The notes below the pieces were generated by a model. The model was not told where the DNA came from and made no database searches. It was given only the letters and a program-made list of their open reading frames with translations. Shown in pieces: positions 3,704 to 34,743 of a stretch of 39,119 bases of DNA (within the stretch, counting starts at the first letter, position 1; the number at the start of each line of letters is the position of its first letter). Source of the stretch: Candidatus Gastranaerophilales bacterium (GTDB lineage: Bacteria > Cyanobacteriota > Vampirovibrionia > Gastranaerophilales > JANQFW01); contig JANQFW010000010.1 in NCBI GenBank assembly GCA_028277625.1, positions 1 to 39,119 on the forward strand, read 5' to 3'. The translations under genes were made by a program, and so were the position numbers.

Positions 3704-6700
3704 TCAAAAATTAGTATCTACAGATGCGTCAGAATACTCATTAGGATAGTCTTCGAACTTATCCAGCACGCCAACAAGCTTATTAAGTTTCAAATCAAAA
3801 TCCAGTATTCTCTTTTCGAGCGTATCCATTCTTTTCATTACCAAGTTACTGTTTTTTCCGGTTTCATTCATAGCTGTAACCTGTCCTGCGATAAACTCTA
3901 ATATCGATCTATCTTCTTGAGGTCTTAAGCCCTCTTGAGCCTTTTGGATTCCATCCAGCTTTTTATCCAAGTGTTGAAAGCGTACTTCCATGTTGCTAAA
4001 TCTTGAATAAATTCTTTTTAGATTTTCATCAACAACGTTTCTCATCTGCTTAAAAGATGTTTCTATCAAGTAATTGATCTTATCTTCAAATTCAGTTAGA
4101 TTACCGGAATTATATTCATAGTCATAGCTGCTCTCCTTTGTTGTAGGACTTTCCAGCATGCTTTGACTTAATTTTCTCAGCTCTTCTCTTACTCTTGCTT
4201 CGTAAGCAGAAATAGAATGATTAATATTAGACATCTGCTGAGAGACACTTGTTAGCTCTGTGTCTAATTTTTGAAAATTATTTGTATTATTCTGTTCTAA
4301 ATTAGCTATCAGGGCATTTAGTTCTAGCTTGAAGTTATTAACTGCACCTGATCTGTCCATTAGACCTTCAATGCGCTTATAATTTAGGCTCATGTCTTCT
4401 CTGGATAGAGATAAATCGTTAGACATCTCTTTTAGCTTAGATAAAATATCAGTATTTAAGCTTTTTAGTTCTTTATGCTCGTTATCAGACTGAGCCAGTG
4501 CATTGCCTATATTACCTTCTAGCTTATCTATCTTTTTGGCTACTTTAATAAAGTTAGAGTCAAACTTTTCCAGGGCATTATTTAGCTCATTTTTTAGAGA
4601 GACTATTATACTTTGAAGTTCTTCATTTTTCTGATTACCTACAGTTAAAAGGTTTTCCATTGATTTGGAGTGCTTTTGTTCAACTGCTTGCATTTCTTCT
4701 TTAATAAGCTTAAATTCTACGAATAGCTTTTTAAGCTTATCATCTTTTATGTCTTTTACGTCGTCTTTAATGTCTTCTACAATATGTCCGGCACTATCTA
4801 TCCATTCTGCCAATTGAACCAGAATATTTTTAATTGTCATATAAGAGTTTTGATTGTTATTAACAGTATGGCTAAGTCTGTTAATCATGTTAAATAAATC
4901 TTTTAAGCTTTTTATAATGTGTTTTCTGGAATCTTGAACAGAAAAGCTAATTTGCACCAGGTTATTTTTTAGCCCTTCATTACTGGAGTCAAAATTGCTA
5001 TTTAATTTGTTTAATCTATCATTTATTTCCTTTGTAGGAGATTCTATTAACTGCCTGCATTCATTTAATGAGGACTTAATAAATTCAGCATCTCCCGAGG
5101 TGTTTCTCATAAAATTACTTGTTTTGGTGGTTAAATCGGATAAATCTGTTTTTAACTCATTAAACCTGCCAAAAATATTGGTCATATCGTTTCTTAAGTC
5201 CATAATGCTTGATGGACTTGGAGTTAAGCTTACATTTTTTGATGAAGTTTCTTCCAATAAATCTGAGAGCTTAATAAGTTCTTCTGAGTTAAGCTTGATT
5301 TGACTCTTAATTTCTTCTTGTTTGCTTATGATATTAGAGTAGTTGTTGCTAACTGTTTCATTTAGCCGGCTTATTTCATCACTATCGCCATTGCTGCTAT
5401 TGTAGGCTTCGCACAATTGGCTTAGCTTGGCAATATTTTCGTTTATTGTTTCAGTTATTGCTTCGCTTAGTTGATGATTATCATTGTTGTTATTATTGCT
5501 ATTACTGCTAACAAAATCGTATATTTTATTTATACCACTGTTATTATTGTCAATAGCATCATGTAGCAGATTAATTTCACTATTATAGTTGCTAACTATC
5601 TCATTTAAGCGGTTAATTTCTACAGTATTATTGTTAATAGTGCTACTGAGCTCATTATTTATATCATTAACTGCCGAAATATTTTTTAATAGATTCTCTA
5701 CTCGTTCGTTGGTATCTTTAGATACATTTACACTGTTATCAACACTTTCGGCAAATTCTTCCGTTATTCTTTTCGACTCAAGAGCTATATTAATTATTCG
5801 GTCAAAAGCTTTTTCCGCTTCTTCAATAACACTAGGAAGCACGCTATTGTAATTGTTATTAGGAGTCTTTAATTTTGCAGAAAAGTCCGTTTGTGCCAAA
5901 TTTTCTACAAAAGATTTTAACTCATTTAACTCTTCATAAATTATAGAAATTTTTGCATCTAACCCGGGAGTCTCTGGATTATGTTCAACTACGCCTAAAC
6001 TGCTTTTAATTATATTAATATCATTTAATATATTAAAGACTTCATCTTTTATAGAATTTTCTTGCAGTTTATCTTTAATGTATTCTATTTTTTCAGATAT
6101 TTCCTGGATACCTTCAGTGTTATCTATGGAGCGGTCTGGTTCTCTATAAGGTTCAGCGCCTATTGATTTTATACTATTTTTTACTTCTTCCAGCTTAAAG
6201 CTTAGCTCTTCAAATTTTTCTTCTGTTTCCAGTGATAGAAGCTGATTTTCTACTTCTTCTACATAAGTATTAATATCAACACTTTCCTGGCTAGCTTTAA
6301 ATTCTTCGAACTTTGCATTTAATAAACTTAAAATAGCTTCTGAATTAAACGATGTTGACTTTTCCTCTTTATCTTCTAAAGCAGAATTATATTGAAAATC
6401 ATTAAGCTTAGAATTTAATTCATCCAGTTTTTCAACTATAGCGTTATCAGTAGATGGCTGCTTTTCTTTTATATCCTGAAGACTTTGTAGAATATAAGCT
6501 ATTTCATCTTTTATGGTAATAGATTGTATTTGAGCTTCAATGTCATTTAATTTTTCTTTTGTTTCTTCTACTGCAAGCCTATCTTTTAGTTCTTCCAGCC
6601 TGCCTATTATTTCAATTACTTCATCTCTGACATACAATTCTTCTGCTTTACTTTTAAAATCTGCCAATACTTCGTTAAAAGATGTACTGTCTTTTAATTC

Positions 6701-9649
6701 ATCAATTTGTTCTTCTAACTCTAAGGCTGAAATGTGATCCTTAAGCTCTTGAAGTTTATCTAAAATAACAGAAATATCTTCTTTTACAGCAAAATTTTCT
6801 GACCTTTGCTGCAAATCAACAAGCTTAGAGTCAGAGTCTTCTATACTGGAAACACTTTCACTTATTTTGTTTAAAGTAACTCCAACGTTTTCTATCTCAG
6901 ATTTTATAGATAAGCCTTCTTCTTGCTTGTTTACTTCAAATACTGTTTGATCAAGTTGCAGCTGAGATGCTTTGTCTTTAAGTTCTTCCAGAGCAGCAAT
7001 AATTTCATTATTTCTACTGTTTAAATTATTTTGCAGATTTTCTACAGTTTCTTTTTTCGCCAAATTAGATATATTATCGTTTATTGAATCAATGCTCTGC
7101 ATTTTGTCTAAAATATTAGACATATCATCACTTATAGATAAATATTCTATTTTGTTTGTTACTTCTGATAGCTTTTGCTCTAAATATTCTTGCGAGAGTT
7201 TATCTGTAGGTATATCTTCTATTTTATTGGTTATATCAGATAATTTTTGCTCAATATCACCCTGAGATAGTTTATGCTTTATTTCTTCCAGGCTGGCAAT
7301 AATTTCAATATTTTTATCATTTAACCTATCTTGCAGTGCTTCTATAAGTTCAGCTTTAGGCAAATTAGATATATTATCTTTTATTGAATCTATATTCTGA
7401 ACTTTATCTAAAAGACTGTACACATCATCTTTTACGGATAATTCTTCTATTTTATTTTTTACTTCTGATAGTTTTTGATCAATGTCATCTTGAAATACTT
7501 TATGCTTTATTTCTTCCAGGCAGCCAATAATTTGTATATTTTTATCATTTAAGTTATCTTGTAGGTCTTCTATAGTTTCACTTTTTGGCAAGTTAGATAT
7601 ATTGTCATTTATTGAGTCTATATTTTGTACTTTATCTAAAAGACTGTATACATCGTCTTTTACAGATAGTTCTTCTATTTTATTTTTTACTTCTGATAGT
7701 TTTTGATCAATATCATCTTGTGATACTTTATTTTTAAGTTCTTCCAGACTAGCAATAACTTGATTATTTCTATTGCTCAAGTTATTTTGCAGTGCTTCTA
7801 TCAGGTCAACTTTTGGCAAATTAGATATATTGTCATTTATTAAATCTATATTTTGCACCTTGTCTAAAAGATTGTAAATATCATCCTTTACAGGCAATTC
7901 TTCTATTTTGTCTGTTACTTCTGATAATTTTTGATCAATATCATCTCTCAAGACTTTATCTTTAAGGTCTTCTATGTTAGCAAGAATTTGAGCATTTTTA
8001 TCATTTAGATTATCTTGTAAGTCTTCTATGTCTTCATTTTTTGCCAAAGCAGACATATTCTCATTTATGAAATCAATACCTTGCACTTTGTCTGAAATAT
8101 TATATATTTCTTCTTTTAAAGAACTTTCTTGAGCTTGAACTTGATATTTTATTTCATTTAAGGCTTTATCAACTTCTTCAACTTGAAATCTGTCTTTTAA
8201 GCATTCAAGCCTGCCTATTACTTCGCCCAAATCTTCTTTTACAGACATTTCTTCTATTTTTAGCTTTATTTCTGAGAATTGGCTGTCTAATTTTTCTTGA
8301 GAAATTATTTCTCTAATGGTCTCTAAACGATCTATTAATTGAGTATTTGTCTCATTCTGGCTATTTCTAAATTCTTCTAGTGCCTCACTTTTTGCTAAGG
8401 CAGGTAATTTATCATTTATCGACTTTACATTTTCAAATATATAATTATTTAAATCTTTTAAAAGAGAAGTTAGTGACACCAGATTTTGATTAAACATATC
8501 TATTGATAAATCTTTTTTAAACAGGTCCATAGAGTCTTTAAAATAGCTTTCTAGCCCTTTTAGCTCTTGAGAAAATTCTTCAAATTGATTTTTAATCGTG
8601 CCTTCTTCAAAAAACAGCTGTAGGTTTTCAATCCCATTTTGTACAGATACGGATGACTCTTTTAGTTGTTCTACTTCATGTTGAAAATATTCAACATGAT
8701 TAGCAACTTCGGTGCCAAATGCAATGTTTTGTTTTTCTATTTGTTTCTCTAGGTGAAAATTTATAGATTCACTGGTTTTATTTAAAACATTTTCCAGGTT
8801 AGAAAAGCCTTCTTTAAGCTCACTAGAAGAACTATCAGAGTGATAAGAGGTTATCGCAAACGATTTCATTTCGGCAAGAAAACTGCTAAACTCGTTTAAT
8901 CTTTCTTCTATATCAGCAATTCCAAGCTTAATCTCTTCTACGCCATCTTCTGAGGGTACTGCTTTTAGCAGTTCAAAAACTGCATCAAATTTTTGGGTAA
9001 CGCCCTGGACCTCTCCTTTTAGTTGGTCTATTTTTTCAGTTTGAGAGTTTTTACAAACTTCTTTAATTTCTGTTGTTATTAGTTCTAATTTTTCGAGAGT
9101 GTTTTTTATGTATTCATCTTCTTGATTTTGAGCTTGATTTTCAATATGGAATTTTAGTTGATCAAATCTGGAGTTTATAGCATTAAAATTCTGCTCATAG
9201 CTTGATAATGAGCTTTTTAAGCTTTCCAGGTCAGTTTCTGTTGTATTGTCTAATTTGTCATAAATTTTATTTATATTAGATTGAGAGCTCCAAAACTCAT
9301 CTTTTAATCCACAGACAGAATCCTTTAAGATTTCTATTTGCTCATTGCAGTGATTAAATATTTTTTCTTCTTGAATTTCTGTAGAAATATTTATAATTTT
9401 TTTAACTATATCTTCTAAAGAGCCTACTTTTTCTTCTATGATATTTTGTTTTTCTTCAATTTCTTGTTTTAAATCGGTTAGTGCCAACTCAAAGTAGTCT
9501 ACACCACCTGTCTGGGCAATAACATCTACTTTTGCTTCAAGACGATTTAATACTTCATCGCTTTGACCGGAAGATGCTACCGGGTACTTTTCTATAAACT
9601 CTTCTACTAAAGAAGCTAACCTATCAATCTTATTATTTTCAAACTCCAT
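3704..9649 (-). CDS. Giant coiled-coil protein with 76-residue repeats, function unknown
   Basis: A 1981-residue protein that is almost entirely heptad-like helix rich in Glu, Lys, Asn, Ser, Leu and Ile, with no signal peptide and no membrane segment, so a cytoplasmic structural or scaffolding filament is the likeliest role (inference). Residues about 500-870 contain five units of a 76-residue repeat (core LLDKVQNIDSINDNISNLPK, then LQDNLNDKN, then LEEIKHKV and QKLSEVKNKIEEL). An Asn/Ser-rich stretch follows around residues 1320-1420, and a less repetitive C-terminal part ends in VDTNF. Other long coiled-coil proteins would give spurious similarity, so homology to SMC, myosin or methyl-accepting proteins should not be assumed. 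No ATPase head is present. The start is supported by GGGAGAG 11 bases upstream. It appears monocistronic, with a long leader of at least 200 bases possible. I do not recognise a family. Confidence 0.85.
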   Translation of the reverse strand: MEFENNKIDRLASLVEEFIEKYPVASSGQSDEVLNRLEAKVDVIAQTGGVDYFELALTDLKQEIEEKQNIIEEKVGSLEDIVKKIINISTEIQEEKIFNHCNEQIEILKDSVCGLKDEFWSSQSNINKIYDKLDNTTETDLESLKSSLSSYEQNFNAINSRFDQLKFHIENQAQNQEDEYIKNTLEKLELITTEIKEVCKNSQTEKIDQLKGEVQGVTQKFDAVFELLKAVPSEDGVEEIKLGIADIEERLNEFSSFLAEMKSFAITSYHSDSSSSELKEGFSNLENVLNKTSESINFHLEKQIEKQNIAFGTEVANHVEYFQHEVEQLKESSVSVQNGIENLQLFFEEGTIKNQFEEFSQELKGLESYFKDSMDLFKKDLSIDMFNQNLVSLTSLLKDLNNYIFENVKSINDKLPALAKSEALEEFRNSQNETNTQLIDRLETIREIISQEKLDSQFSEIKLKIEEMSVKEDLGEVIGRLECLKDRFQVEEVDKALNEIKYQVQAQESSLKEEIYNISDKVQGIDFINENMSALAKNEDIEDLQDNLNDKNAQILANIEDLKDKVLRDDIDQKLSEVTDKIEELPVKDDIYNLLDKVQNIDLINDNISNLPKVDLIEALQNNLSNRNNQVIASLEELKNKVSQDDIDQKLSEVKNKIEELSVKDDVYSLLDKVQNIDSINDNISNLPKSETIEDLQDNLNDKNIQIIGCLEEIKHKVFQDDIDQKLSEVKNKIEELSVKDDVYSLLDKVQNIDSIKDNISNLPKAELIEALQDRLNDKNIEIIASLEEIKHKLSQGDIEQKLSDITNKIEDIPTDKLSQEYLEQKLSEVTNKIEYLSISDDMSNILDKMQSIDSINDNISNLAKKETVENLQNNLNSRNNEIIAALEELKDKASQLQLDQTVFEVNKQEEGLSIKSEIENVGVTLNKISESVSSIEDSDSKLVDLQQRSENFAVKEDISVILDKLQELKDHISALELEEQIDELKDSTSFNEVLADFKSKAEELYVRDEVIEIIGRLEELKDRLAVEETKEKLNDIEAQIQSITIKDEIAYILQSLQDIKEKQPSTDNAIVEKLDELNSKLNDFQYNSALEDKEEKSTSFNSEAILSLLNAKFEEFKASQESVDINTYVEEVENQLLSLETEEKFEELSFKLEEVKNSIKSIGAEPYREPDRSIDNTEGIQEISEKIEYIKDKLQENSIKDEVFNILNDINIIKSSLGVVEHNPETPGLDAKISIIYEELNELKSFVENLAQTDFSAKLKTPNNNYNSVLPSVIEEAEKAFDRIINIALESKRITEEFAESVDNSVNVSKDTNERVENLLKNISAVNDINNELSSTINNNTVEINRLNEIVSNYNSEINLLHDAIDNNNSGINKIYDFVSSNSNNNNNDNHQLSEAITETINENIAKLSQLCEAYNSSNGDSDEISRLNETVSNNYSNIISKQEEIKSQIKLNSEELIKLSDLLEETSSKNVSLTPSPSSIMDLRNDMTNIFGRFNELKTDLSDLTTKTSNFMRNTSGDAEFIKSSLNECRQLIESPTKEINDRLNKLNSNFDSSNEGLKNNLVQISFSVQDSRKHIIKSLKDLFNMINRLSHTVNNNQNSYMTIKNILVQLAEWIDSAGHIVEDIKDDVKDIKDDKLKKLFVEFKLIKEEMQAVEQKHSKSMENLLTVGNQKNEELQSIIVSLKNELNNALEKFDSNFIKVAKKIDKLEGNIGNALAQSDNEHKELKSLNTDILSKLKEMSNDLSLSREDMSLNYKRIEGLMDRSGAVNNFKLELNALIANLEQNNTNNFQKLDTELTSVSQQMSNINHSISAYEARVREELRKLSQSMLESPTTKESSYDYEYNSGNLTEFEDKINYLIETSFKQMRNVVDENLKRIYSRFSNMEVRFQHLDKKLDGIQKAQEGLRPQEDRSILEFIAGQVTAMNETGKNSNLVMKRMDTLEKRILDFDLKLNKLVGVLDKFEDYPNEYSDASVDTNF
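6990..8170 (-). repeat. 228-bp in-frame tandem repeats within the coiled-coil gene
   Basis: The segment encoding LDKVQ recurs at plus-strand positions about 7101, 7401, 7629, 7857 and 8085. Three steps are exactly 228 bp (76 codons). The step between 7101 and 7401 is 300 bp because a 24-residue piece containing another QKLSEVTNKIE was inserted. The two middle units are nearly identical at protein level, suggesting recent duplication or homogenisation. The outer boundaries given are approximate. Confidence 0.85.
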
Positions 9650-13754: not shown

Positions 13755-14909
13755 TTATTTACTGATGTGACTTTCTGGACATCTGGGCTTTACTACAATG
13801 CTTTGCAGGCATTCAATAACATCATTGGGCTTTAACACCCCTTGGACAACATAATCTTTGATTAAATAGACAGTATTTGCTATTCGCATAAGCTTGTCGA
13901 ATTCTCTTCTAATTTCGACTTTTGCCTGATTAATGCCGATATTGTACCTGAATTCTTTAGCTTTTACCAAGTCAATTTCCGCAGGTATAGCATTATTCCA
14001 GTCTACGCCTCCACCTGCCCTAAGTATAGGTATAATATCTATCAAGTTATCCCATGCTGCCGGTGGCTTGCCTGCCAAGCCCAGGTCGAATTTGTAGGTT
14101 CTTTTATTTTGTTTTTCTTCAGCTATTTTTTTCTCTACTGCAAAAACGCTTTGACTTGCATCTTGTGCTTTTTTTAATGCGTTTTCTTCTCTTGCTATAT
14201 AATCGTATGCCTCTTTGTGCAACAAGCTTTCGGTTCTTAATTTTTCTGCATTATCTATTTCTTTGTTTCTTTTTTTTATTTCTGCATTTTCTTTTTTTAT
14301 TTTTTTATTAAATTTTTTAATGCAAGCCTGGCCTTTTGTTCGGGCATCTTGTAATTTTTCATACCGCAAACCGGATAATCCTGTAAGTCGTCCAAACAAC
14401 GAATCATAGGGCTGATATTTTTTAAACTCGTTTATTGAATCTATTGCATCTTTTAACTCTGGATATTCACCGTTATCATATAGCAAAAGTGATTCCCAGT
14501 CTTTAGAGTTTAGAGGAGGCGTATTCTTCTTTTTGGCAAGCGGCCATGGCATTTTTCTTTCAGTTTTTGCTATAACTAAATTTTCATAAATTTTAGTTCT
14601 TTTTGCAATCCTGCCTATAAATTTTTCATAAATTGCATCATCCAGCAGATATGGGGATATTACTTTATCAAAGTGCCTTTCTGACTCAAACAAGTTACCC
14701 TCAAATACTTCATTGATTTTATTAATAAATTTTGAGAAATGCCCTTTAAAGGGAGTACTTTTAAGCTTGCAAGCTTTGTCCGTGCAGTCTATAAGCATAT
14801 CTATTGTTGCTTTAGAACTTTTTAAGGGGGATTCATACCCATTTGCTAATTTTTTACCTGTATATTGTCTAATTAAGCAGTTATACGCCTGTAAGGATGA
14901 TACTGCCAT
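13755..14909 (-). CDS. Hypothetical protein with central coiled coil
   Basis: A 384-residue protein I do not recognise. The N-terminus (MAVSSLQAYNCLIRQYTGKK) is not a signal peptide, and there is no membrane helix. Residues about 205-275 are a strongly charged Lys/Glu helix (KKFNKKIKKENAEIKKRNKE) likely to form a coiled coil, flanked by mixed segments with conserved-looking Trp, Gly and Pro (DLGLAGKPPAAWDNL, RAGGGVDWNNAIPAEIDLVK). The protein ends in a short Cys-Pro-containing tail. It has a GGGTG-type sequence before its ATG and its own upstream region containing a nested inverted repeat. It is convergent with the dehydrogenase operon, with only 13 bases between stop codons. No function is proposed. 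Confidence 0.75.
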   Translation of the reverse strand: MAVSSLQAYNCLIRQYTGKKLANGYESPLKSSKATIDMLIDCTDKACKLKSTPFKGHFSKFINKINEVFEGNLFESERHFDKVISPYLLDDAIYEKFIGRIAKRTKIYENLVIAKTERKMPWPLAKKKNTPPLNSKDWESLLLYDNGEYPELKDAIDSINEFKKYQPYDSLFGRLTGLSGLRYEKLQDARTKGQACIKKFNKKIKKENAEIKKRNKEIDNAEKLRTESLLHKEAYDYIAREENALKKAQDASQSVFAVEKKIAEEKQNKRTYKFDLGLAGKPPAAWDNLIDIIPILRAGGGVDWNNAIPAEIDLVKAKEFRYNIGINQAKVEIRREFDKLMRIANTVYLIKDYVVQGVLKPNDVIECLQSIVVKPRCPESHISK

Positions 14910-25271: not shown

Positions 25272-25505
25272 TTAATACAGAAGAAATGCTTTTATTGGAG
25301 ATCCTACAATAAAGCCAGACCTTTGAGCAATTAAAGTAACTGCAGAATCTTTTGAAAAGCCGCCATTATCAATTTTTAAATCTAAACCTCTAGTTTGTTG
25401 CCTTGGCGATGGTACTCTAACAGCTGAGTCTGATGAACTTTTTTTGCCTCCAGCTTTACAAGCCACTACTCCTTTTATGCCTAATCCTAATCCCATTGCT
25501 CCCAT
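25272..25505 (-). CDS. Small protein downstream of the S8 proteases
   Basis: A 77-residue frame starting ATGGGA, with GAGGG and AGG upstream, 59 bases after the end of the first S8 protease gene and on the same strand, so co-transcription is likely. The protein starts MGAMGLGLGIKGVVACKAGG, then a Ser/Lys/Arg/Pro-rich linker, then LDLKIDNGGFSKDSAVTLIA and a hydrophobic end IKAFLLY. Its start (Met-Gly, short glycine/leucine stretch, basic Ser/Pro-rich segment) resembles the first 40 residues of the neighbouring protease. It may be a protease inhibitor, substrate, chaperone or a reduced paralogue; none of these is shown. No cleaved signal peptide is clear. Confidence 0.6.
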   Translation of the reverse strand: MGAMGLGLGIKGVVACKAGGKKSSSDSAVRVPSPRQQTRGLDLKIDNGGFSKDSAVTLIAQRSGFIVGSPIKAFLLY

Positions 25506-25564
25506 CCTAAAACCCTCTTTATCTTCTTTTTTAACTAATTAACTTTTATCTTTTGGTTTATATA

Positions 25565-27049
25565 TTATTCAATAACTGAAAACACTTCTTCTGGCGGAAA
25601 CCCTTTGTGAAGAGCTTCTTTTTTTACTTTATTTTTTTTAGCTTCAAGTATTTTGTGTTTTTTATTGTATTCTTCTGCTAATGCTGTAGGTGCTGCAAAT
25701 GAAGTCCCTACTATAAAGGTAGATGCGTGTCTACCAGAATTGTCAAAATCGAAAAACAAGTCAGTATTTTTATCAAATTTAGTGTTTTTATCTTGTTTAG
25801 CCTTTTCCTCAAATTTTACGTATTTTAAAAATTCCAGCCCTATAAGCTTTTCTATATACTTATCTATAAATACTCTATTTCTAAGCTCTTTGCCAAGTTC
25901 TTGCTCTCTTAATATTGCTTTTTGAATTTTTATCCTAAGATCAGAGCTATCAAAACCAAGAATATGCTTATTTAAGTCAGATAATCTTTCGTGCAACATA
26001 TTTTTTAGGTTTTTCCTTTCAGCTGAGTCTCCGTATTTTTTTGATATATAATCTAGTAAATTTCCTGATTCATCAAAAAACTGGTCATTTTTATCTATGT
26101 CTATATCTAAAACATCAATGATTTCAAGATCTTTCTTGAGTTGCTCTTCAAAAGAGTTTTCTTCAGAAGGAATTTGAACATCATTACCGCCTGTTAAGTT
26201 AAACCCTAAAACTTTACCTCTATCATCTTTAATGGCTTCTACGTTATAAGTTCCCTGTGCCCATTCGGAAACTAAAGAATTATCTGCAGAGTAACTCTGT
26301 TTATGTCCTTTAGCGTCTGTAGCACCTACAACAACAGCCCCATTAGCAAAACTTGTAGGGCTAAAATAATTCACTCCATCATTGCCTGCTGCTAAATAAA
26401 CAGGTACTCCTAAGGCGGTTACTCCTTCTATAGCTTTCATTAGCTTCTGGTCTAGCATAGGCAATTGGCCTCGAAGTTCTGCCTTGTAGTCCACTAAATT
26501 TTCTGGATTTACCTCCTTTTTAAGTAGCTTAGTAGCACTTAAATGTTTAGAGCCTGAAGCATTTTGGACTGTTTGCTTTTGAAGTAGCTCAGACTTATCA
26601 CCATAATTTAAAGATGATCCGACAGATAAATTAACCCCATCTATTTGTTGTCCTTGCTTTATAGCACGCTGTAAACCTTCAATTTTTGATATAACTTCTG
26701 CGGTTGCCACTTTTCCGTTTTTTAAAATTGGCACAGGCTCTCTTCTTACATTTGAGCCGGGACATAAAGACTTAATGATTGCTTCAATAACTTCTCCATG
26801 AGAGCTTTTAGCAATTACATTATCTGAGTCAAAATTATCAACTACAGCAAATACAGGAGACCTATCACTTGTATCCTCAGTAGAGCACGCTGTTATAAAA
26901 ACTTTTGGCCCTCGTGATGTATACAAAGCCTGACCCCTTTGAACATAACCAACGCCTCTTTTTGCATGAGGAGTTCTCCCACTACTTTTTTGCCTTTGCA
27001 TTGTATTTGTTGCAGCTAAAAGACCTGCTTGTAATCCAAGTGTCCCCAT
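25565..27049 (-). CDS. Subtilisin-like S8 serine protease with inserted domain (copy 1)
   Basis: A 494-residue serine protease of the S8 (subtilase) type. The catalytic triad reads Asp71 in FAVVDNF, His84 in SHGEVIEAI and Ser450 in GTSFAAPTALAE; the oxyanion Asn is Asn223 in VYLAAGNDG. Ordinary subtilisins have about 65 residues between Asn and Ser; here there are 227, so a domain of about 160 residues (about 270-435, containing LLDYISKKYGD and ILGFDSSDL) is inserted. The N-terminal 50 residues are basic and low-complexity after MGTLGLQAGLLAATNT and are not a standard signal peptide. The C-terminus GFPPEEVFSVIE is shared with the second copy. GAGGA precedes the ATG. Secretion route and substrate unknown. 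Confidence 0.85.
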   Translation of the reverse strand: MGTLGLQAGLLAATNTMQRQKSSGRTPHAKRGVGYVQRGQALYTSRGPKVFITACSTEDTSDRSPVFAVVDNFDSDNVIAKSSHGEVIEAIIKSLCPGSNVRREPVPILKNGKVATAEVISKIEGLQRAIKQGQQIDGVNLSVGSSLNYGDKSELLQKQTVQNASGSKHLSATKLLKKEVNPENLVDYKAELRGQLPMLDQKLMKAIEGVTALGVPVYLAAGNDGVNYFSPTSFANGAVVVGATDAKGHKQSYSADNSLVSEWAQGTYNVEAIKDDRGKVLGFNLTGGNDVQIPSEENSFEEQLKKDLEIIDVLDIDIDKNDQFFDESGNLLDYISKKYGDSAERKNLKNMLHERLSDLNKHILGFDSSDLRIKIQKAILREQELGKELRNRVFIDKYIEKLIGLEFLKYVKFEEKAKQDKNTKFDKNTDLFFDFDNSGRHASTFIVGTSFAAPTALAEEYNKKHKILEAKKNKVKKEALHKGFPPEEVFSVIE

Positions 27050-27100
27050 ACGTTAATATCCTCTTTTCCATAACTAATTTTTTTTAAATTTAACCAGTTA

Positions 27101-27130
27101 TTCAAAGTTCAAAATAGATATTTTTTAATA
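27101..27130 (-). promoter_or_regulatory. Shared upstream box, protease copy 1
   Basis: Thirty bases, 52 upstream of the ATG, matching 25 of 30 with the box before protease copy 2. On the coding strand it reads TATTAAAAAATATCTATTTT followed by GAACTTTGAA. It contains TTGAAC, possibly a -35 element or a regulator site. Confidence 0.5.
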
Positions 27131-27181
27131 GCCTCAAATAATTATTTACAAAAATTCAAACCATCAATTTTTATCAATTTA

Positions 27182-28567
27182 TTACTCAATAATTTTAAAT
27201 ACCTCTTCTGGAGGAAAGCCGTTGGTAAGACCTTCAGCTAAATCTTTACTGCCTGTCTTTTGTTGATCTAGAAAATCTCTTACCATTGCGGCAGGGGCGG
27301 CAAAAGATGTTCCTGCTATTACGCCAAAAGCATTTCTACCAGAGCCATCAAAGTCAAAAAATGGTTTTCCTTCTTTGTCAAACTTTACATACCTTAAGGT
27401 TTCCATATCCTCGAGCTTATCTATATATTTATTTATAAACGCTTTATTAGTGAGTTCTTTATTGGGTTCCAAAATTGCTTTTTGTACTTTTAGCATAAGC
27501 TTAAAGCTATCAAAACCAAGGATATCATTATTAATTTCAGATAATATGTCACACCTTTTATTACTTATAGCTTTACAACCTTCGTCTTTATATTTTTTTG
27601 ATATGTAATCTAATAAATTTTCTGAGTTTTGAAAATGTTCATCATCCTTATCTATTTCTATACCTAGAGTATCAATAAGTTTAAGCTTTTCTTCACATTG
27701 ACTTGGAGGAGGAGTACCATTCACAGGCAATTGAACTTGATTACCACCTGTTAAGTTAAAGCCCAATATTTTACCATCCTTATCCTTGACGGCTACAGTG
27801 CTATAAGTACCCTGTGCCCAGGTTGATACCAAAGAATTCTTAGCAGAGTAATCTTCTTCATTGCCTTTTACATCTGTCGCACCTACAGTCTTAGCCTTAT
27901 TAGTTAAAGACATAGCATTAAAATGGGCTTGACCATTATTACCTGCAGCGATATAGACAGGTATGCCTTGCTCTTCTAAAGCTTCTATAGATTGCATCAA
28001 CTCTTGCTGGTCATCATTTAATTTTTCTCGCAATTGAGCCTTTTTATCAGCTATGTTTTCTGAAGTTACTTTTTGATTAAGAACTTTAGAAGCTTGTTCA
28101 AAATTTGACGTAGCTTCACTTGATATGTTAACTCCATAAAATTGAGTACCCCAATCACTAGCTTTTTTTACTCCCTTAAGGTTAGCTATAAGATCTGAGT
28201 ACGACAACTCTCCCTCTCCTAAAGGCAATAAACCCTGCCTTTTAACAACGGCACCCGGACATTTTGCTTTTATAATAGCTTCAACAACCTCTCCATGAGA
28301 CAGCTCCCCTTTTCCGTCTCCGTCAGAATCAACGGTTTTCGTTAGAAAGTTATCTACAACTGCAAAAGTAGGATGCAATACTGCTGGTGTGTTATCATTT
28401 TCACTGACTGAACATCCTGCATAAATTACTCGTGGCTGTCCCACTGGAGAAAAAAGCCTGGTTCCTCTTTGATGAGCAGGCATAGATAATGCAGGAGCAT
28501 TACATTTTCGTCTTCCTGCAAATATTCTGCTATTTGGAAATTGTAATTGTAGTAGTGTTATCCCCAT
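27182..28567 (-). CDS. Subtilisin-like S8 serine protease with inserted domain (copy 2)
   Basis: A 461-residue paralogue of the neighbouring protease. Triad residues are Asp72 (FAVVDNF), His91 (LSHGEVVEAI) and Ser421 (AGTSFAAPAAM), with Asn210 in VYIAAGNNG. The same long insertion is present (about 270-405, LLDYISKKYKD, DILGFDSFKL), as is the same C-terminal GFPPEEVFKIIE. A DSDGDGKGE acidic loop between Asp and His could bind calcium (inference). The N-terminus is MGITLLQLQFPNS followed by a basic Pro-rich segment, again no classical signal peptide. AAGGA precedes the ATG. It is separated from copy 1 by 132 bases that contain a related upstream box, so each copy may have its own promoter. All key residues are intact, so both copies are probably active. 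Confidence 0.85.
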   Translation of the reverse strand: MGITLLQLQFPNSRIFAGRRKCNAPALSMPAHQRGTRLFSPVGQPRVIYAGCSVSENDNTPAVLHPTFAVVDNFLTKTVDSDGDGKGELSHGEVVEAIIKAKCPGAVVKRQGLLPLGEGELSYSDLIANLKGVKKASDWGTQFYGVNISSEATSNFEQASKVLNQKVTSENIADKKAQLREKLNDDQQELMQSIEALEEQGIPVYIAAGNNGQAHFNAMSLTNKAKTVGATDVKGNEEDYSAKNSLVSTWAQGTYSTVAVKDKDGKILGFNLTGGNQVQLPVNGTPPPSQCEEKLKLIDTLGIEIDKDDEHFQNSENLLDYISKKYKDEGCKAISNKRCDILSEINNDILGFDSFKLMLKVQKAILEPNKELTNKAFINKYIDKLEDMETLRYVKFDKEGKPFFDFDGSGRNAFGVIAGTSFAAPAAMVRDFLDQQKTGSKDLAEGLTNGFPPEEVFKIIE

Positions 28568-28611: not shown

Positions 28612-28641
28612 CTTAAAGTTCAAAGCAGATATTTATTAATA
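28612..28641 (-). promoter_or_regulatory. Shared upstream box, protease copy 2
   Basis: The counterpart of the box before copy 1, 45 bases upstream of the ATG. On the coding strand it reads TATTAATAAATATCTGCTTT followed by GAACTTTAAG. Conservation of non-coding sequence here supports either a recent tandem duplication including the promoter or a common regulator. Confidence 0.5.
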
Positions 28642-28674: not shown

Positions 28675-28717
28675 TAAAAAAAAAGAGTGCTCAAGCTTTT
28701 AACACTTTAAGCACTCT
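28675..28717 (-). terminator. Intrinsic terminator of the RTX protein gene
   Basis: On the minus strand AGAGTGCT (28717-28710), an 18-base loop, AGCACTCT (28691-28684), then a run of T down to 28675. It lies 29-71 bases after the RTX stop codon and separates that gene from the protease genes. Confidence 0.85.
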
Positions 28718-28745: not shown

Positions 28746-31700
28746 TTATATCCAATAAATCTGAAGCTCCTGCATTAATTGTGTATCTTCAGATACTTCA
28801 TCAACATTTTTAAATTCAACACTATTTGAATCTTCATAAGCTGCTATATGATTTATTATACCGTTTATATCTGCAGATAGGCCAGATGACACTTCTATAT
28901 TTTCAACCGCATATTTAGGATTGTTATACTGTTGAATTGATATAATATCACCCTCGCCGTACTTAAGATCAAGGTAATAGCCACCTCTATCAAAAAATGC
29001 AATACTTTCTTTTTGGATTTCTGTACTAAATAATACTCTATCTTCTGTGTCATTGCCCTTATCAAAAACTCTATCCTTGCCATCACCTGTATTAAAGAGA
29101 TAGGTATCATTACCTTTGTTGCCGGCCAGATAATCATCGCCTTTATTTCCTTTTAGCGTATTATTTTTTGAACTTCCTTCAATCCAGTTATCATAATTAT
29201 TACCTTCGGCAACAACCGCATTTCCTCGTAGGCATAATTTTTCTATATTATCAGATAGCGTATAGTCTATATAAGAATAAACTCCATCATAGCCTTCATC
29301 ATCGATAATAACATCATTGATATTATCAATAACAAATCTATCATTACCAGCAGCACCATTCATAGTATCAACACCAGTACCACCATTAAGGTAGTCATCT
29401 CCATCGCCACCAGCTAAACTGTCATTACCATTTTTAGCATAAATTTTATCTTTACCTTCTCCCCCTTGAAGTATATTATCCAAAGAGTTTCCAACAATGT
29501 TGTTATTTAAGTCATTACCTGTACCTATTATTGCATCGCCTGTTAACTCCAGAATTTCTATACCTCCAGGTAGAGTATAGTTTACAGATGATATAACATA
29601 GTCTCGCCCTGCACTATCTATAACAACCTCGCCATTATTATCAACATAGTATCTGTCATTACCAGTGCCACCATTCATAGTGTCAATCCCAGCACCTCCA
29701 TCTATGATATCATTGCCACTGCCTCCATCGATACTGTCATTGCCATCTTTACCATAGAGCTTGTCTTTATCATCCCCACCTAATAACGTATCAGCACCAG
29801 TACCACCATTTAAGGTATCTTGGCCTAGTCCTCCATCTATACTATCATTACCGGCTTCTCCACTAATGTTATCGTTTCCTGCTTGTCCATCGATAGTGTT
29901 ATCTAGATTATTTGCAGTTATAGTATCATCTTGTTGAGAACCTACAATACTTTTTGTAGCTGAAGCGGTTTCAGATTCGAGCCAATTTTCTTTTCCAAAT
30001 AGCAAATAAGCTTTTCCTGAGTGATCACCGTTTTCACTTGTATGAGAAGCACCGACTAGTACGTCGTCAATACCGTCATTATTGACATCTCCACCAGTAC
30101 TCAACCCATAGCCAAAATGGCTGTTAATTTCCTCGCCGTTAATTCTGATCACTTTATCTTGTGATTTTAAGTCACTCATATATAACTCATCAGGAAGTGC
30201 ATTCCATTCTTCTTCTGGCCTTCCAAAGATAATATAAGCTTCTCCAGGTTTATTTGTTGCTGGTACAGCATATTGATAAGCTCCAACCGCAATATCATTA
30301 TAGCCGTCATTATTTATATCACCTGCACTTGTCACAATGACACCAAAGTCGTTTTGTTTACCATTACCTATAAAACGAATCATACCATTTGACTGGCTGA
30401 CATTATTTAAGTCAAATTGTCCATCTTGGTCAGTTAAACTATCAAGATCTTCTTTACTTCTTCCAAATATTAAATATGCTTCTCCTGAATCAAAGCCATC
30501 ACTATTAGAACTTTCTGCACCTATTATAATATCATTTAGACCATCACCATTAACATCTCCTGCAGTACTAAGACCTTGACCAGAGACATCATCTTCATCA
30601 CGGCCAATGAATGTATATATCTCATCAGCTTTATTTGCATTAATTAATTCATAATTATTCTTTTGATCTGTTAATGACATCCACTCACTTCTTGATCTGC
30701 CCAAGAATAGATAAGACTCTCCTTTGAGATTATCACTATATTTAGCGGATATAAGCAAATCGTCAATTCCATCATTATTAATATCACCCATTTTTTCACT
30801 CATGCGCGATAAAGCAGAAAAATTTTCCGGTTTACCAACAAAGTGAATAACTCCATCATCTGACGATAAGTTTTCAATTTCTCCCAGGTTAAATTTATTA
30901 TCGTCACCAACCAGAGTACTCCATTCTGATTCAGACCTGCCGAATAGCAAATAAATATTACCTGTTATAAAACTATTATCATAGCCATAACCACCTGCAC
31001 CAATCAAGAAGTCATCATAACCGTCTGCATCTATATCTCCTGCATTAGAAATGCTGGTACCTGACTCACCAGCATACTTGTTTCCAAGGAAGCTATAGAT
31101 TTTACTGGATTCGTCAATATTATTCATATTAAAATTTCCATCGGTTGGAGCTGCAAAACTGTTCCATTCTGCATCACTTCTACCAAAAATGATATATGTT
31201 TGCCCTGTTTTCAAATCAATTGTTGAATCAGAATCCGCACTAACAACTATATCATCATAGCTATCTCCATTAAGGTCTCCACCGTTAGCTACTTTAAAGC
31301 CAAATCTCTCTCCGTTTGTCTTACCAATTAGTCTTATGACTTTATTATTTGCCCAGCTGGAATCCGCAGTATTAAATTTACCGTCTGCACCTATTAAACT
31401 ATTCCACTCTTCTTTTTCTCTACCTAATACAATATAAGCCTCACCAGGTTTTGTCTTAGTGTCATATGACTGGTTTGCACCAATAACAAGATCATCTATC
31501 CCATCACCGTTAACATCTCCAGCATTACTAACAAAATGTCCTAAAAGATGCTCTTCTCCTTTTCCGATAAATTGAACTGTATTGTTTAATTCACTTACAT
31601 TTAAGTCATATTCTAGATCGTCAAGCAAATCAACTGTATGATTATATTCGTTATTTTGTCTTACTGCGCTATTTTTAAGATCAACGTATATATTATTATT

Positions 31701-33935
31701 TTTAACAGAGCTAAAGTCTAAGCTATTTAGACCATTGGAATCTTTAACAGTGTCTTTACCCCAATTATCATTAAATTTATAGGTATCATTGCCACCTTTT
31801 CCTTGAAGGTCGTCATTTCCTGCTTGGCCATCAATAATATTATCTATACTATTAGCGATTATTGAGTCATTACCCTGAGAGCCTATTATATTTGTATCAA
31901 TTTTTTTAGAACTCAAGTACCATTTTTCTCTTCCAAAAAGGACAAATGTTTCTCCACTGTTAGGGCCACCACTACCTGCCCCTATTGCTCCAATAGATAT
32001 ATCAGCATAACTATCATTATTTATATCTCCAATTCCATTTAAGTCATAACCTAAGAAATCTCCTTTATTTTGTCCAATAATTCTAATCATTTGAGTGTTT
32101 TGAGAGGCTTGATTCATGTCAAAATTTGCATTTGATGATAAATTTGACCAATTATCAGCGTCTCTACCCAAAATAATATAGGCTTTGCCCTGATCATCCT
32201 CTGATTGATTTTTTTCTGCTTTAAAAGCACCTATCAGAATATCATCATAACCATCAGCATTTATATCATGAGCCTTATTAACACTTTGGCCAAAATTATC
32301 ATTAGAGCTTTCTCCTATAAGCTTTATTCTATTTTGAAAGTTATCTATATCATACGAGCCTTTAATCCAGTCATTACTTCCAAAAATTAAATAAGCAGCT
32401 CCAGATTTAGTGCCATTAATTCCAGATCCCGGAGAACCTATTATCATATCGCCAAAACCATCATTATTTATATCTCCAGCATAGCTCACTGACTCACCTA
32501 AAAGCCCACTCTCATCACTTCCAATAAATTCAAATGTATTATCCTTTATACCAATATTAGATAAGTTGAATAAGTTTGTATTATCTGTTAGATCTGCAAA
32601 GTCAGACCTGCCCAAAATAACATAAACTTCTCCTTTTGGATTTCCCCCTTCTTGACTTATTAAACCAACATTCGGTGCACCTATAATAATATCACTATAT
32701 CCATCTTTATTAATATCACCTGCACTAATGCTTCTACCGGCATAATCCCAAGAGTCCTTGCCTCTTATTTGAATTATATTGTCAGAAAGATCATTTATAT
32801 CATTATTAAGTGTACTTAAATCATATGATACTGATCCATTTGTTAAGTCATCCCACTCTGATGATGTTCTTCCTAATAAGAGATAAGTTTCACCAACTGC
32901 CCAATCTCCGGTAGTATGATCTGATAATGGGGCAGATATTATTAAATCATTAAAATTATCGTTATTAATATCTCCAGCAAAGCTAACATCATAACCTAAT
33001 CTGTCATGTTTTGTTTTACCTGTAATAACTTTTATATTATCCTCAGGTGTTATTGTTTCTAAATCTAAATTTCCACTTATGTCCGTTAAGTTTGACCAGC
33101 CTGCAGCGTCCCTGCCAAATATTATATAAGCAGCTCCGGAAGCAACTTTGTTACCACCTCCATATGCGGATATAACTATGTCATTATAGCCATCATTATT
33201 TAAATCCTGTACATTGCCAATTGTATTTGAGTTTCTGCCAAAATTATCGCTAAAATCAGCACCCATAACTCTGATAATACTACTATCTTCTGAAATATTT
33301 GATAAGTCAAACTCTGAAGACTCATTTATAAGTCCACTCCAACTAAGATTATTTCTTCCAAAGACAATGTAGGCCTCGCCAATGCCACTTCCATTTTCTC
33401 CAGGAGCTCCTATAATAAAATCATTATATCCATCACCATTTATATCACCTGCGCTTGACAAGCCCATTCCCAGATTATCATTTGCTTCTCTACCAATAAA
33501 TTTAATTGTACCATTTTCATAGCTCATATTATCAAGATCATAATTACCATTTTCCTGAACAACAGATAGAAAGGGGCTAGCAGAATTAAACTTCAGGGTA
33601 TGATACACTTGAGCATTTTGCTTGACTATAGCTTTATTAAGGTCAATATTTACAAAATTACTATTTTGATCTATAGCACTAAAATCCAAACTATTTATAC
33701 CTTTAAGGTCATAAATAACATCTTGTCCCCAATTGTCATCAAACTTATACGTATCATTGCCAAGCCCTCCATGTATGATGTCATTGTCTAAACCTGCTAT
33801 GATAATATCATTTCCATTATAAGCGTGAATAGTATCATCTCCACCTTTTCCCTCTATGGAGTCATTTTCTTCGGTTCCATTTAGAACTTCAGCATTATCT
33901 GAACCAATAATTATATTAGTATTCTCTATTACCAT
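28746..33935 (-). CDS. Large RTX protein with two seven-repeat FG-GAP propellers
   Basis: A 1729-residue, probably secreted or surface-attached protein. Residues 1-70 hold RTX-type calcium nonapeptides (GGDDTIHAYNGND, GGLGNDTYKF). Residues 150-670 contain seven FG-GAP (integrin alpha-like) repeats of about 80 residues with calcium loops DINGDG at 164, 244, 322, 407, 488, 557 and 637. A second RTX cassette (685-725) follows, then seven more FG-GAP repeats with loops at 807, 887, 968, 1051, 1127, 1206 and 1283. A long RTX array occupies about 1330-1615 (GGTGADTLLGG, GGSGNDIIDGG). There is no N-terminal signal peptide. RTX proteins usually leave through a type I system using an uncleaved C-terminal signal; the acidic, Ser-rich end (EDTQLMQELQIYWI) fits loosely. 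No type I transporter genes are in the window. Adhesion or extracellular matrix is the likely role. GAGAGGA precedes the ATG. Confidence 0.92.
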   Translation of the reverse strand: MVIENTNIIIGSDNAEVLNGTEENDSIEGKGGDDTIHAYNGNDIIIAGLDNDIIHGGLGNDTYKFDDNWGQDVIYDLKGINSLDFSAIDQNSNFVNIDLNKAIVKQNAQVYHTLKFNSASPFLSVVQENGNYDLDNMSYENGTIKFIGREANDNLGMGLSSAGDINGDGYNDFIIGAPGENGSGIGEAYIVFGRNNLSWSGLINESSEFDLSNISEDSSIIRVMGADFSDNFGRNSNTIGNVQDLNNDGYNDIVISAYGGGNKVASGAAYIIFGRDAAGWSNLTDISGNLDLETITPEDNIKVITGKTKHDRLGYDVSFAGDINNDNFNDLIISAPLSDHTTGDWAVGETYLLLGRTSSEWDDLTNGSVSYDLSTLNNDINDLSDNIIQIRGKDSWDYAGRSISAGDINKDGYSDIIIGAPNVGLISQEGGNPKGEVYVILGRSDFADLTDNTNLFNLSNIGIKDNTFEFIGSDESGLLGESVSYAGDINNDGFGDMIIGSPGSGINGTKSGAAYLIFGSNDWIKGSYDIDNFQNRIKLIGESSNDNFGQSVNKAHDINADGYDDILIGAFKAEKNQSEDDQGKAYIILGRDADNWSNLSSNANFDMNQASQNTQMIRIIGQNKGDFLGYDLNGIGDINNDSYADISIGAIGAGSGGPNSGETFVLFGREKWYLSSKKIDTNIIGSQGNDSIIANSIDNIIDGQAGNDDLQGKGGNDTYKFNDNWGKDTVKDSNGLNSLDFSSVKNNNIYVDLKNSAVRQNNEYNHTVDLLDDLEYDLNVSELNNTVQFIGKGEEHLLGHFVSNAGDVNGDGIDDLVIGANQSYDTKTKPGEAYIVLGREKEEWNSLIGADGKFNTADSSWANNKVIRLIGKTNGERFGFKVANGGDLNGDSYDDIVVSADSDSTIDLKTGQTYIIFGRSDAEWNSFAAPTDGNFNMNNIDESSKIYSFLGNKYAGESGTSISNAGDIDADGYDDFLIGAGGYGYDNSFITGNIYLLFGRSESEWSTLVGDDNKFNLGEIENLSSDDGVIHFVGKPENFSALSRMSEKMGDINNDGIDDLLISAKYSDNLKGESYLFLGRSRSEWMSLTDQKNNYELINANKADEIYTFIGRDEDDVSGQGLSTAGDVNGDGLNDIIIGAESSNSDGFDSGEAYLIFGRSKEDLDSLTDQDGQFDLNNVSQSNGMIRFIGNGKQNDFGVIVTSAGDINNDGYNDIAVGAYQYAVPATNKPGEAYIIFGRPEEEWNALPDELYMSDLKSQDKVIRINGEEINSHFGYGLSTGGDVNNDGIDDVLVGASHTSENGDHSGKAYLLFGKENWLESETASATKSIVGSQQDDTITANNLDNTIDGQAGNDNISGEAGNDSIDGGLGQDTLNGGTGADTLLGGDDKDKLYGKDGNDSIDGGSGNDIIDGGAGIDTMNGGTGNDRYYVDNNGEVVIDSAGRDYVISSVNYTLPGGIEILELTGDAIIGTGNDLNNNIVGNSLDNILQGGEGKDKIYAKNGNDSLAGGDGDDYLNGGTGVDTMNGAAGNDRFVIDNINDVIIDDEGYDGVYSYIDYTLSDNIEKLCLRGNAVVAEGNNYDNWIEGSSKNNTLKGNKGDDYLAGNKGNDTYLFNTGDGKDRVFDKGNDTEDRVLFSTEIQKESIAFFDRGGYYLDLKYGEGDIISIQQYNNPKYAVENIEVSSGLSADINGIINHIAAYEDSNSVEFKNVDEVSEDTQLMQELQIYWI

Positions 33936-34107: not shown

Positions 34108-34743
34108 TTATTTGCTATAAAGCTCTTTAAGTCTTCTTATATCATTAGAAGACAATTCTTTATTTGTTATTCCTCTATGAAACATAATATCATCAGACGA
34201 AGCACTATGATTTAAGCCTAAAGAGTGTCCAACTTCATGTAGTGCTGTTCTTCTTACGCGCTCTACCCTAGCGGAATCTGTTGCCATTTTATCAATTTCT
34301 GGAAAAATAACTATGGTTATTTCAGCTTTTTCTATAATATTTTTTATTACTTTTAAATTATTATGCCCAGACTCATAAATACGCCCGTGTACAGTATTTG
34401 ATGCCCAGTTTATTATTATATCTGCACTGTTTTTATTATAAATTCTTTTAAACTTAACAATGTTACTTGCTTCTGCCCAGGGCAAAAAGCTTTGTTCAAT
34501 TGCCTTTACAAAATTCGGTAAAAATTTTTCATGACGACAGTCTAAGTCTATATAAAATTTTAAAGGAAAATTTTCATCAATCCACTTAGGGCACTCATGT
34601 TGCTTGCTTTTTTCATTTTCTTCCCATTGATTTAGCTTATTAACATCATTAACAGCCTGGGCTTCATCAGTATTAGATTGAGAGATAAGGCCTGAACTTT
34701 TAGTATAAATTTTTATATTATTAAACTTATTGATCTTCATCAT
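34108..34743 (-). CDS. Metzincin (matrixin-like) zinc metalloprotease
   Basis: A 211-residue protein with the extended zinc motif HEVGHSLGLNH (HExxHxxGxxH) and a following Met-turn-type DIMFHRG, diagnostic of metzincins and closest in appearance to the matrixin/M10 group. The catalytic domain occupies about residues 60-211: FPLKFYIDLDC begins it, and ADIIINW is the usual strand before the active-site helix. The first 50 residues form a polar, possibly propeptide-like segment, but contain no cysteine-switch motif and no signal peptide. Start ATG-ATG at 34743/34740 follows TAGGA. It lies directly upstream of the RTX gene in the transcription direction, 172 bases away. It may be secreted by the same unknown route as the S8 proteases, or act inside the cell. 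Confidence 0.88.
   Translation of the reverse strand: MMKINKFNNIKIYTKSSGLISQSNTDEAQAVNDVNKLNQWEENEKSKQHECPKWIDENFPLKFYIDLDCRHEKFLPNFVKAIEQSFLPWAEASNIVKFKRIYNKNSADIIINWASNTVHGRIYESGHNNLKVIKNIIEKAEITIVIFPEIDKMATDSARVERVRRTALHEVGHSLGLNHSASSDDIMFHRGITNKELSSNDIRRLKELYSK

Follow-up and report, generated by a model that had tools for sequence, protein, structure and literature searches.

A tandem pair of divergent subtilases with a long insert before the catalytic serine in a Gastranaerophilales genome

A domain placed between the oxyanion Asn and the catalytic Ser, just ahead of the Ser, is found in the PA-domain subtilases tomato SBT3, C5a peptidase and P57. In P57 the PA domain spans residues 340-479, with the catalytic Ser at 492, and it binds substrate (PMC5177683). 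In CspB, an insertion of ~130 residues interrupts the subtilase domain and stabilises or stiffens the protease (PMC3567191). Subtilases without a signal peptide are intracellular, and short N-terminal extensions act in them as inhibitors (PMC6220982). In ISP and AprX, such an extension replaces both signal and prodomain (PMC6220982, PMC9549277), and the N-terminal pro-peptide of ISP carries a LIPY/F motif (PMC6220982).

Two adjacent genes, P1 and P2, lie in a 39,119-nucleotide stretch of DNA from a Candidatus Gastranaerophilales bacterium, the whole of which was analysed and is referred to as the window. As in the PA-domain enzymes, the insert of P1 and P2 precedes the catalytic Ser directly, but it is predicted, at low confidence, to be helical rather than beta; no PA domain was matched in Pfam at E <= 1, and the PA-domain enzymes are secreted with a signal and a prodomain. 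CspB differs in keeping its prodomain and in having a beta jellyroll as its insert, and no sequence link to it was found. By hydropathy, P1 and P2 appear to lack a signal peptide, as ISP and AprX do, and like these they have only a short N-terminal extension where signal and prodomain would stand. They are, however, very distant from these enzymes in sequence and have inserts, and the LIPY/F motif is absent from the first 70 residues of both. The best NCBIfam matches by score are T7SS mycosins (TIGR03921) and PatA-type proteases, all weak (E 3.5e-4 to 0.08); the TIGR03921 scores of 18.5-19.8 bits, against a cut-off of 278.75, do not place the proteins among the mycosins, and the window contains neither T7SS nor cyanobactin genes.

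The two protease genes and their surroundings

P2 (27182..28567, minus strand) encodes 461 residues and P1 (25565..27049, minus strand) encodes 494. Translation confirmed both ORFs, and a 77-codon ORF beyond P1, at the positions first given for them, each starting ATG-GGN (Met-Gly). P1 and P2 are 49% identical in an alignment over their whole length, far above chance, and both frames are open and coding-like. An element upstream of P2, TATTAATAAATATCTGCTTTGAACTTT (28615..28640, minus strand), has a second copy upstream of P1 (~27108-27134), which supports a tandem duplication that included the upstream region. Judged by sequence, P1 and P2 are tandem duplicates of one divergent member of the S8 family.

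The Asp-His-Ser order of peptidase family S8 (clan SB), with S8-type surroundings, is present in both P2 (D72, H91, N210, S421) and P1 (D71, H84, N223, S450), as are an oxyanion Asn in AAGN-G and the motif GTSFAAP. Against the Pfam S8 model (PF00082), P2 scores 24.5 bits, above the cut-off of 21.8, and P1 scores 15.6 bits, below it, which shows the divergence of the family. Four relatives (L013, L024, L089 and L092) exceed this cut-off, and the best relative gives E 2e-7 in a match that covers the catalytic Ser. Every PDB entry matched by a family profile was a subtilase (best E 1.6e-5). In a global HHalign comparison of P2 with subtilisin BPN', D72/D32, H91/H64, N210/N155 and S421/S221 are in register, as are the core strands and helices. 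Together these results make the identification of P1 and P2 as subtilases well supported, and the original prediction of two S8 proteases of one design is upheld. An AlphaFold model of whole P2, built from an alignment of only three sequences, had a mean pLDDT of 45; Foldseek returned no subtilase for this poor model, which is evidence neither way.

The family departs from other S8 subtilases in its spacing, with 13-24 residues rather than 32 between Asp and His, a longer part between His and Asn, 84-227 rather than 66 residues between Asn and Ser, and, in nearly all members, 12-44 rather than 54 after the Ser. The Asp-His distance is mostly 19 among the members measured. A short distance, put forward at first as a peculiarity of the pair, is indeed present (19 in P2, 13 in P1) but is a family-wide trait. 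Many members have an Asp-rich stretch here (e.g. DIDGDNIPD, DINGDRIPD or DIDGDGVTD) that resembles a calcium loop. In P2 this stretch reads DSDGDGKGE; in P1 it has been deleted. Since only 10 of 34 members match a strict calcium-loop pattern in this stretch, some of them out of register, calcium binding by this loop is left as a possibility.

Asp, His and Ser are retained in nearly all full-length members of the family. The oxyanion Asn is replaced by Ser in three relatives and by Asp in one, and activity may thus be low or absent in part of the family. These substitutions, the loss of the Asp-rich loop from P1 and a frame change that breaks the same-genus homologue of the pair in its deposited contig could be taken to mean that P1 and P2 are a decaying or regulatory pseudoprotease duplication that no longer catalyses. 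This is improbable, as all four catalytic residues and GTSFAAP are kept in both copies after ~50% divergence, in open and coding-like frames, and the frame change may stem from misassembly of a metagenome bin.

Both proteins end in GFPPEEVF-x-x-IE, as translated from the ORFs (P2, GFPPEEVFKIIE, 27185..27220; P1, GFPPEEVFSVIE, 25568..25603; both minus strand). The predicted identical-type C-terminus is therefore confirmed, and a pattern search found it encoded nowhere else in the genome. The looser form GFPPEE-x-F-x-x-IE is confined to the pair and the same-genus homologue (GFPPEEAFSVIE), and the motif is thus real but narrow. A role as a general sorting tag was rejected because only two genes in the genome carry it.

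Upstream of P2, the region 28746-33935 (minus strand) encodes a 1729-residue protein with FG-GAP and RTX calcium-binding repeats. An inverted repeat, AGAGTGCT...AGCACTCT, with A/T runs (28684..28717) lies between this gene and P2 and is terminator-like by eye; its loop exceeds the length limit of the inverted-repeat scan, which for this reason does not include it. The repeat suggests that the RTX gene and P2 do not simply share one transcript. The RTX gene has no counterpart next to the pair's same-genus homologue. In G001 (L041), an RTX protein whose C-terminal end is similar occurs near a subtilase paralogue. Adjoining the RTX gene is a gene for a 211-residue matrixin-like (M10) metalloprotease that has neither a signal peptide nor RTX repeats (34108-34743, minus strand). 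A defence system was rejected as there was no PADLOC match, and a phage origin was rejected as none of 18 pattern matches in viral contigs was a relative.

The insert ahead of the catalytic serine

In P2, the insert comprises residues ~275-414 (27326..27745, minus strand), between a GFNLTG turn and the GTS motif; the homologous insert of P1 comprises residues ~288-443 (25721..26188, minus strand). The Asn-Ser distance is 211 in P2 and 227 in P1, compared with 66 in subtilisin BPN', which amounts to ~145-160 extra residues. By HHalign, they replace the loop formed by BPN' residues ~205-216, just ahead of the catalytic Ser. Over the family the distance ranges from ~84 to 227, with P1 and P2 at the long end; it is ~198-211 in members from a second order of the same class and 84-101 in the many relatives that have no insert.

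The insert is also present in a close homologue, L040, which belongs to the same genus but another genome and is 40-44% identical to the pair. Among other genomes, the nearest to carry this insert is Candidatus Gastranaerophilales bin PL23b_bin.96. Of the novel inserted domain that had been proposed, the insertion itself is real and is kept in this homologue, but it is not limited to the pair, as other families and another order have counterparts.

An insert profile of the pair and the same-genus homologue matched that of the other order in HHalign at 79% over 138 columns, with a score of 37.6, while shuffled controls reached at most 17.4 (0/25 as good). The inserts of G004 and G009 matched the other order at 98.6%. 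The insert profile of group C showed similarity that was absent or marginal to both the pair's group and the other order, and not all long inserts can consequently be called homologous; the G090-type inserts have no similarity to that of the pair. Sharing is strongest at the flanks, with a G-[FY]-x-[IL]-x-G turn preceding the insert and G-x-x-x-D-x-D-G-S-G-R following it. The corresponding GFNLTG-type turn and FDFDGSGR of the pair are common to long members elsewhere.

In a tree built after removal of poorly filled columns, P1 and P2 are each other's closest relatives (92/78), and the same-genus homologue joins them in one clade (100/98). The distribution of long inserts on the tree needs at least two changes, and five on the best tree. 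Since the pair's insert resembles those of the other order by profile, it is probably old, and the simplest reading is that it was shortened or lost several times in relatives; some inserts may have been gained independently. AlphaFold, run on the insert alone with three sequences, gave a mostly helical model of low confidence (mean pLDDT 43).

P1 and P2 are recent tandem duplicates within a class-wide subtilase family and most likely active endopeptidases, in which the insert would overhang the active site as a specificity or access-control module. The overhang is proposed because the replaced loop lies along the primed (S1'/S2') side of the cleft; for the access-control role, the PA domain of other subtilases, which sits at the topologically equivalent position, is the precedent. 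Active enzymes with an insert that shapes access to the primed side, and a variable leader that may act as a short segment for inhibition or sorting, are the reading we favour, with some reserve, from sequence and from analogy.

The insert could instead mainly stabilise or rigidify the enzyme, or aid folding where there is no prodomain, rather than select substrates. The family has no recognisable prodomain (17-145 residues precede the Asp), so that help with folding would have to come from elsewhere, and the CspB jellyroll is a precedent; but relatives without the insert are many and presumably fold, and we regard this alternative as rather unlikely. A more far-reaching suggestion is that the insert is a new, class-ancestral helical fold, a built-in lid that takes the place of the prodomain and controls entry to the active site, possibly with the help of calcium, in a family that has multiplied and diversified. 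Calcium enters this suggestion through the Asp-rich loop that many members have between Asp and His, and the whole is offered tentatively, as something we doubt more than we believe. The range of insert lengths, 84 to 227 residues by Asn-Ser distance, forms a natural series in which the role of such inserts could be tested.

N-terminal leaders and the 77-residue ORF

The N-terminal 60 residues of P1 and P2 contain 7-8 K/R against 2 D/E and have a pI >10. A hydropathy scan found no strong hydrophobic segment at either N-terminus (no 19-residue segment >0.5), and no separate prodomain was matched. Export of P1 and P2 by Sec appears unlikely, and their basic N-terminus would act as a flexible leader rather than as a Sec-type export signal. 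Some relatives carry hydrophobic leaders or membrane domains. Across the family, 17-145 residues precede the catalytic Asp, in some members only 17-18, and in fusion proteins >300; the leader sequences differ too. The basic Met-Gly N-terminus that was first noted is shared by P1, P2 and the 77-residue ORF but is not conserved, as the same-genus homologue begins MITKLL. The possibility that the Met-Gly start is N-myristoylated was discarded because none of the three proteins has Ser or Thr at position 6. Unrelated proteins of the lineage often open with a short low-complexity, often basic leader, e.g. ...FKG or ...FSG (L048:1320-3299, L055:3476-4915, L047:4952-6673 and 13755-14909 in the window), and the leaders of P1 and P2 may be instances of this lineage-wide habit.

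The 77-residue ORF (25272..25505, minus strand) lies 59 bases downstream of P1 on the same strand. Its codon score is 0.44 bits per codon, compared with <=0.25 for other non-gene ORFs of 45-100 residues, and it looks translated. Adjacency, strand, coding-like codons and a Met-Gly, basic start could all point to a protein that inhibits or activates the proteases, or is cleaved by them, and that has an export route of its own, in line with the original prediction of a protease-plus-accessory system. The comparisons speak against this. Searches found no homologue, either in the rest of the genome (E <= 10) or among 146 relatives (E <= 0.01). There is no related small ORF downstream of 19 other family members, and the 77-residue ORF is absent beside the same-genus homologue, which stands alone; the frame is thus not conserved beside homologous proteases. 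Its similarity to the protease leaders is not significant (329 and 333 of 500 shuffles were as good). The partner role is accordingly very improbable, although the protein may yet be a fast-evolving or very recent partner. The ORF is best called an unrelated orphan gene that happens to follow P1, which corrects the earlier proposal that the locus may encode a protease and its partner. A truncated third protease was rejected as an explanation of the ORF, with no family match there in a search of the genome at E <= 1 and an alignment not above shuffles.

Distribution of the family

Within Gastranaerophilales, the family was found in 49 of 286 sampled genomes and 21 of 50 sampled genera, and in a second order of the same class in 4 of 11 genomes. 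In a phylum-wide sample, the only matches outside Gastranaerophilales were in another order of this class. As sampling was partial and the profile was built from Gastranaerophilales, absence elsewhere is only suggested. A single-protein scan of GTDB contigs found no relative, and a search with a close alignment found one locus, the same-genus homologue. Title- and abstract-ranked searches of the open literature returned no paper on this family. It appears to be a lineage-specific and undescribed subtilase family of gut-associated, non-photosynthetic cyanobacteria, with several copies per genome.

The 2.9-Mb genome analysed here has six members: the pair, one each on C20 and C139, and two in tandem on C146. 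The second tandem pair of the genome (L049:5601-6539 and 6561-7295) lies beside secDF-like genes. Its second copy has no oxyanion Asn (SAGSDG), and the same is true of L034 and L035 (GGSKG).

In the same-genus homologue (L040:8200-8403), the frame changes shortly before the GTS motif, and a tail with GTSYAAP and GFPPEEAFSVIE follows in another frame; this may be an assembly error in a metagenome bin or real damage. In L022/L056 (G109:C1), a stop splits a family member into ORFs of 181 and 141 residues, likely a broken gene or a sequence error.

In genus g28, the subtilase follows ~300 residues that contain hydrophobic segments and a HEIGHA/HEVGHA (HExxH) motif, and that received no confident Pfam name. 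From their sequences, these proteins (L013:1375-3030, L015:1387-3087, L016, L017, L019, L021 and L064) are apparent fusions of a membrane metalloprotease with a subtilase.
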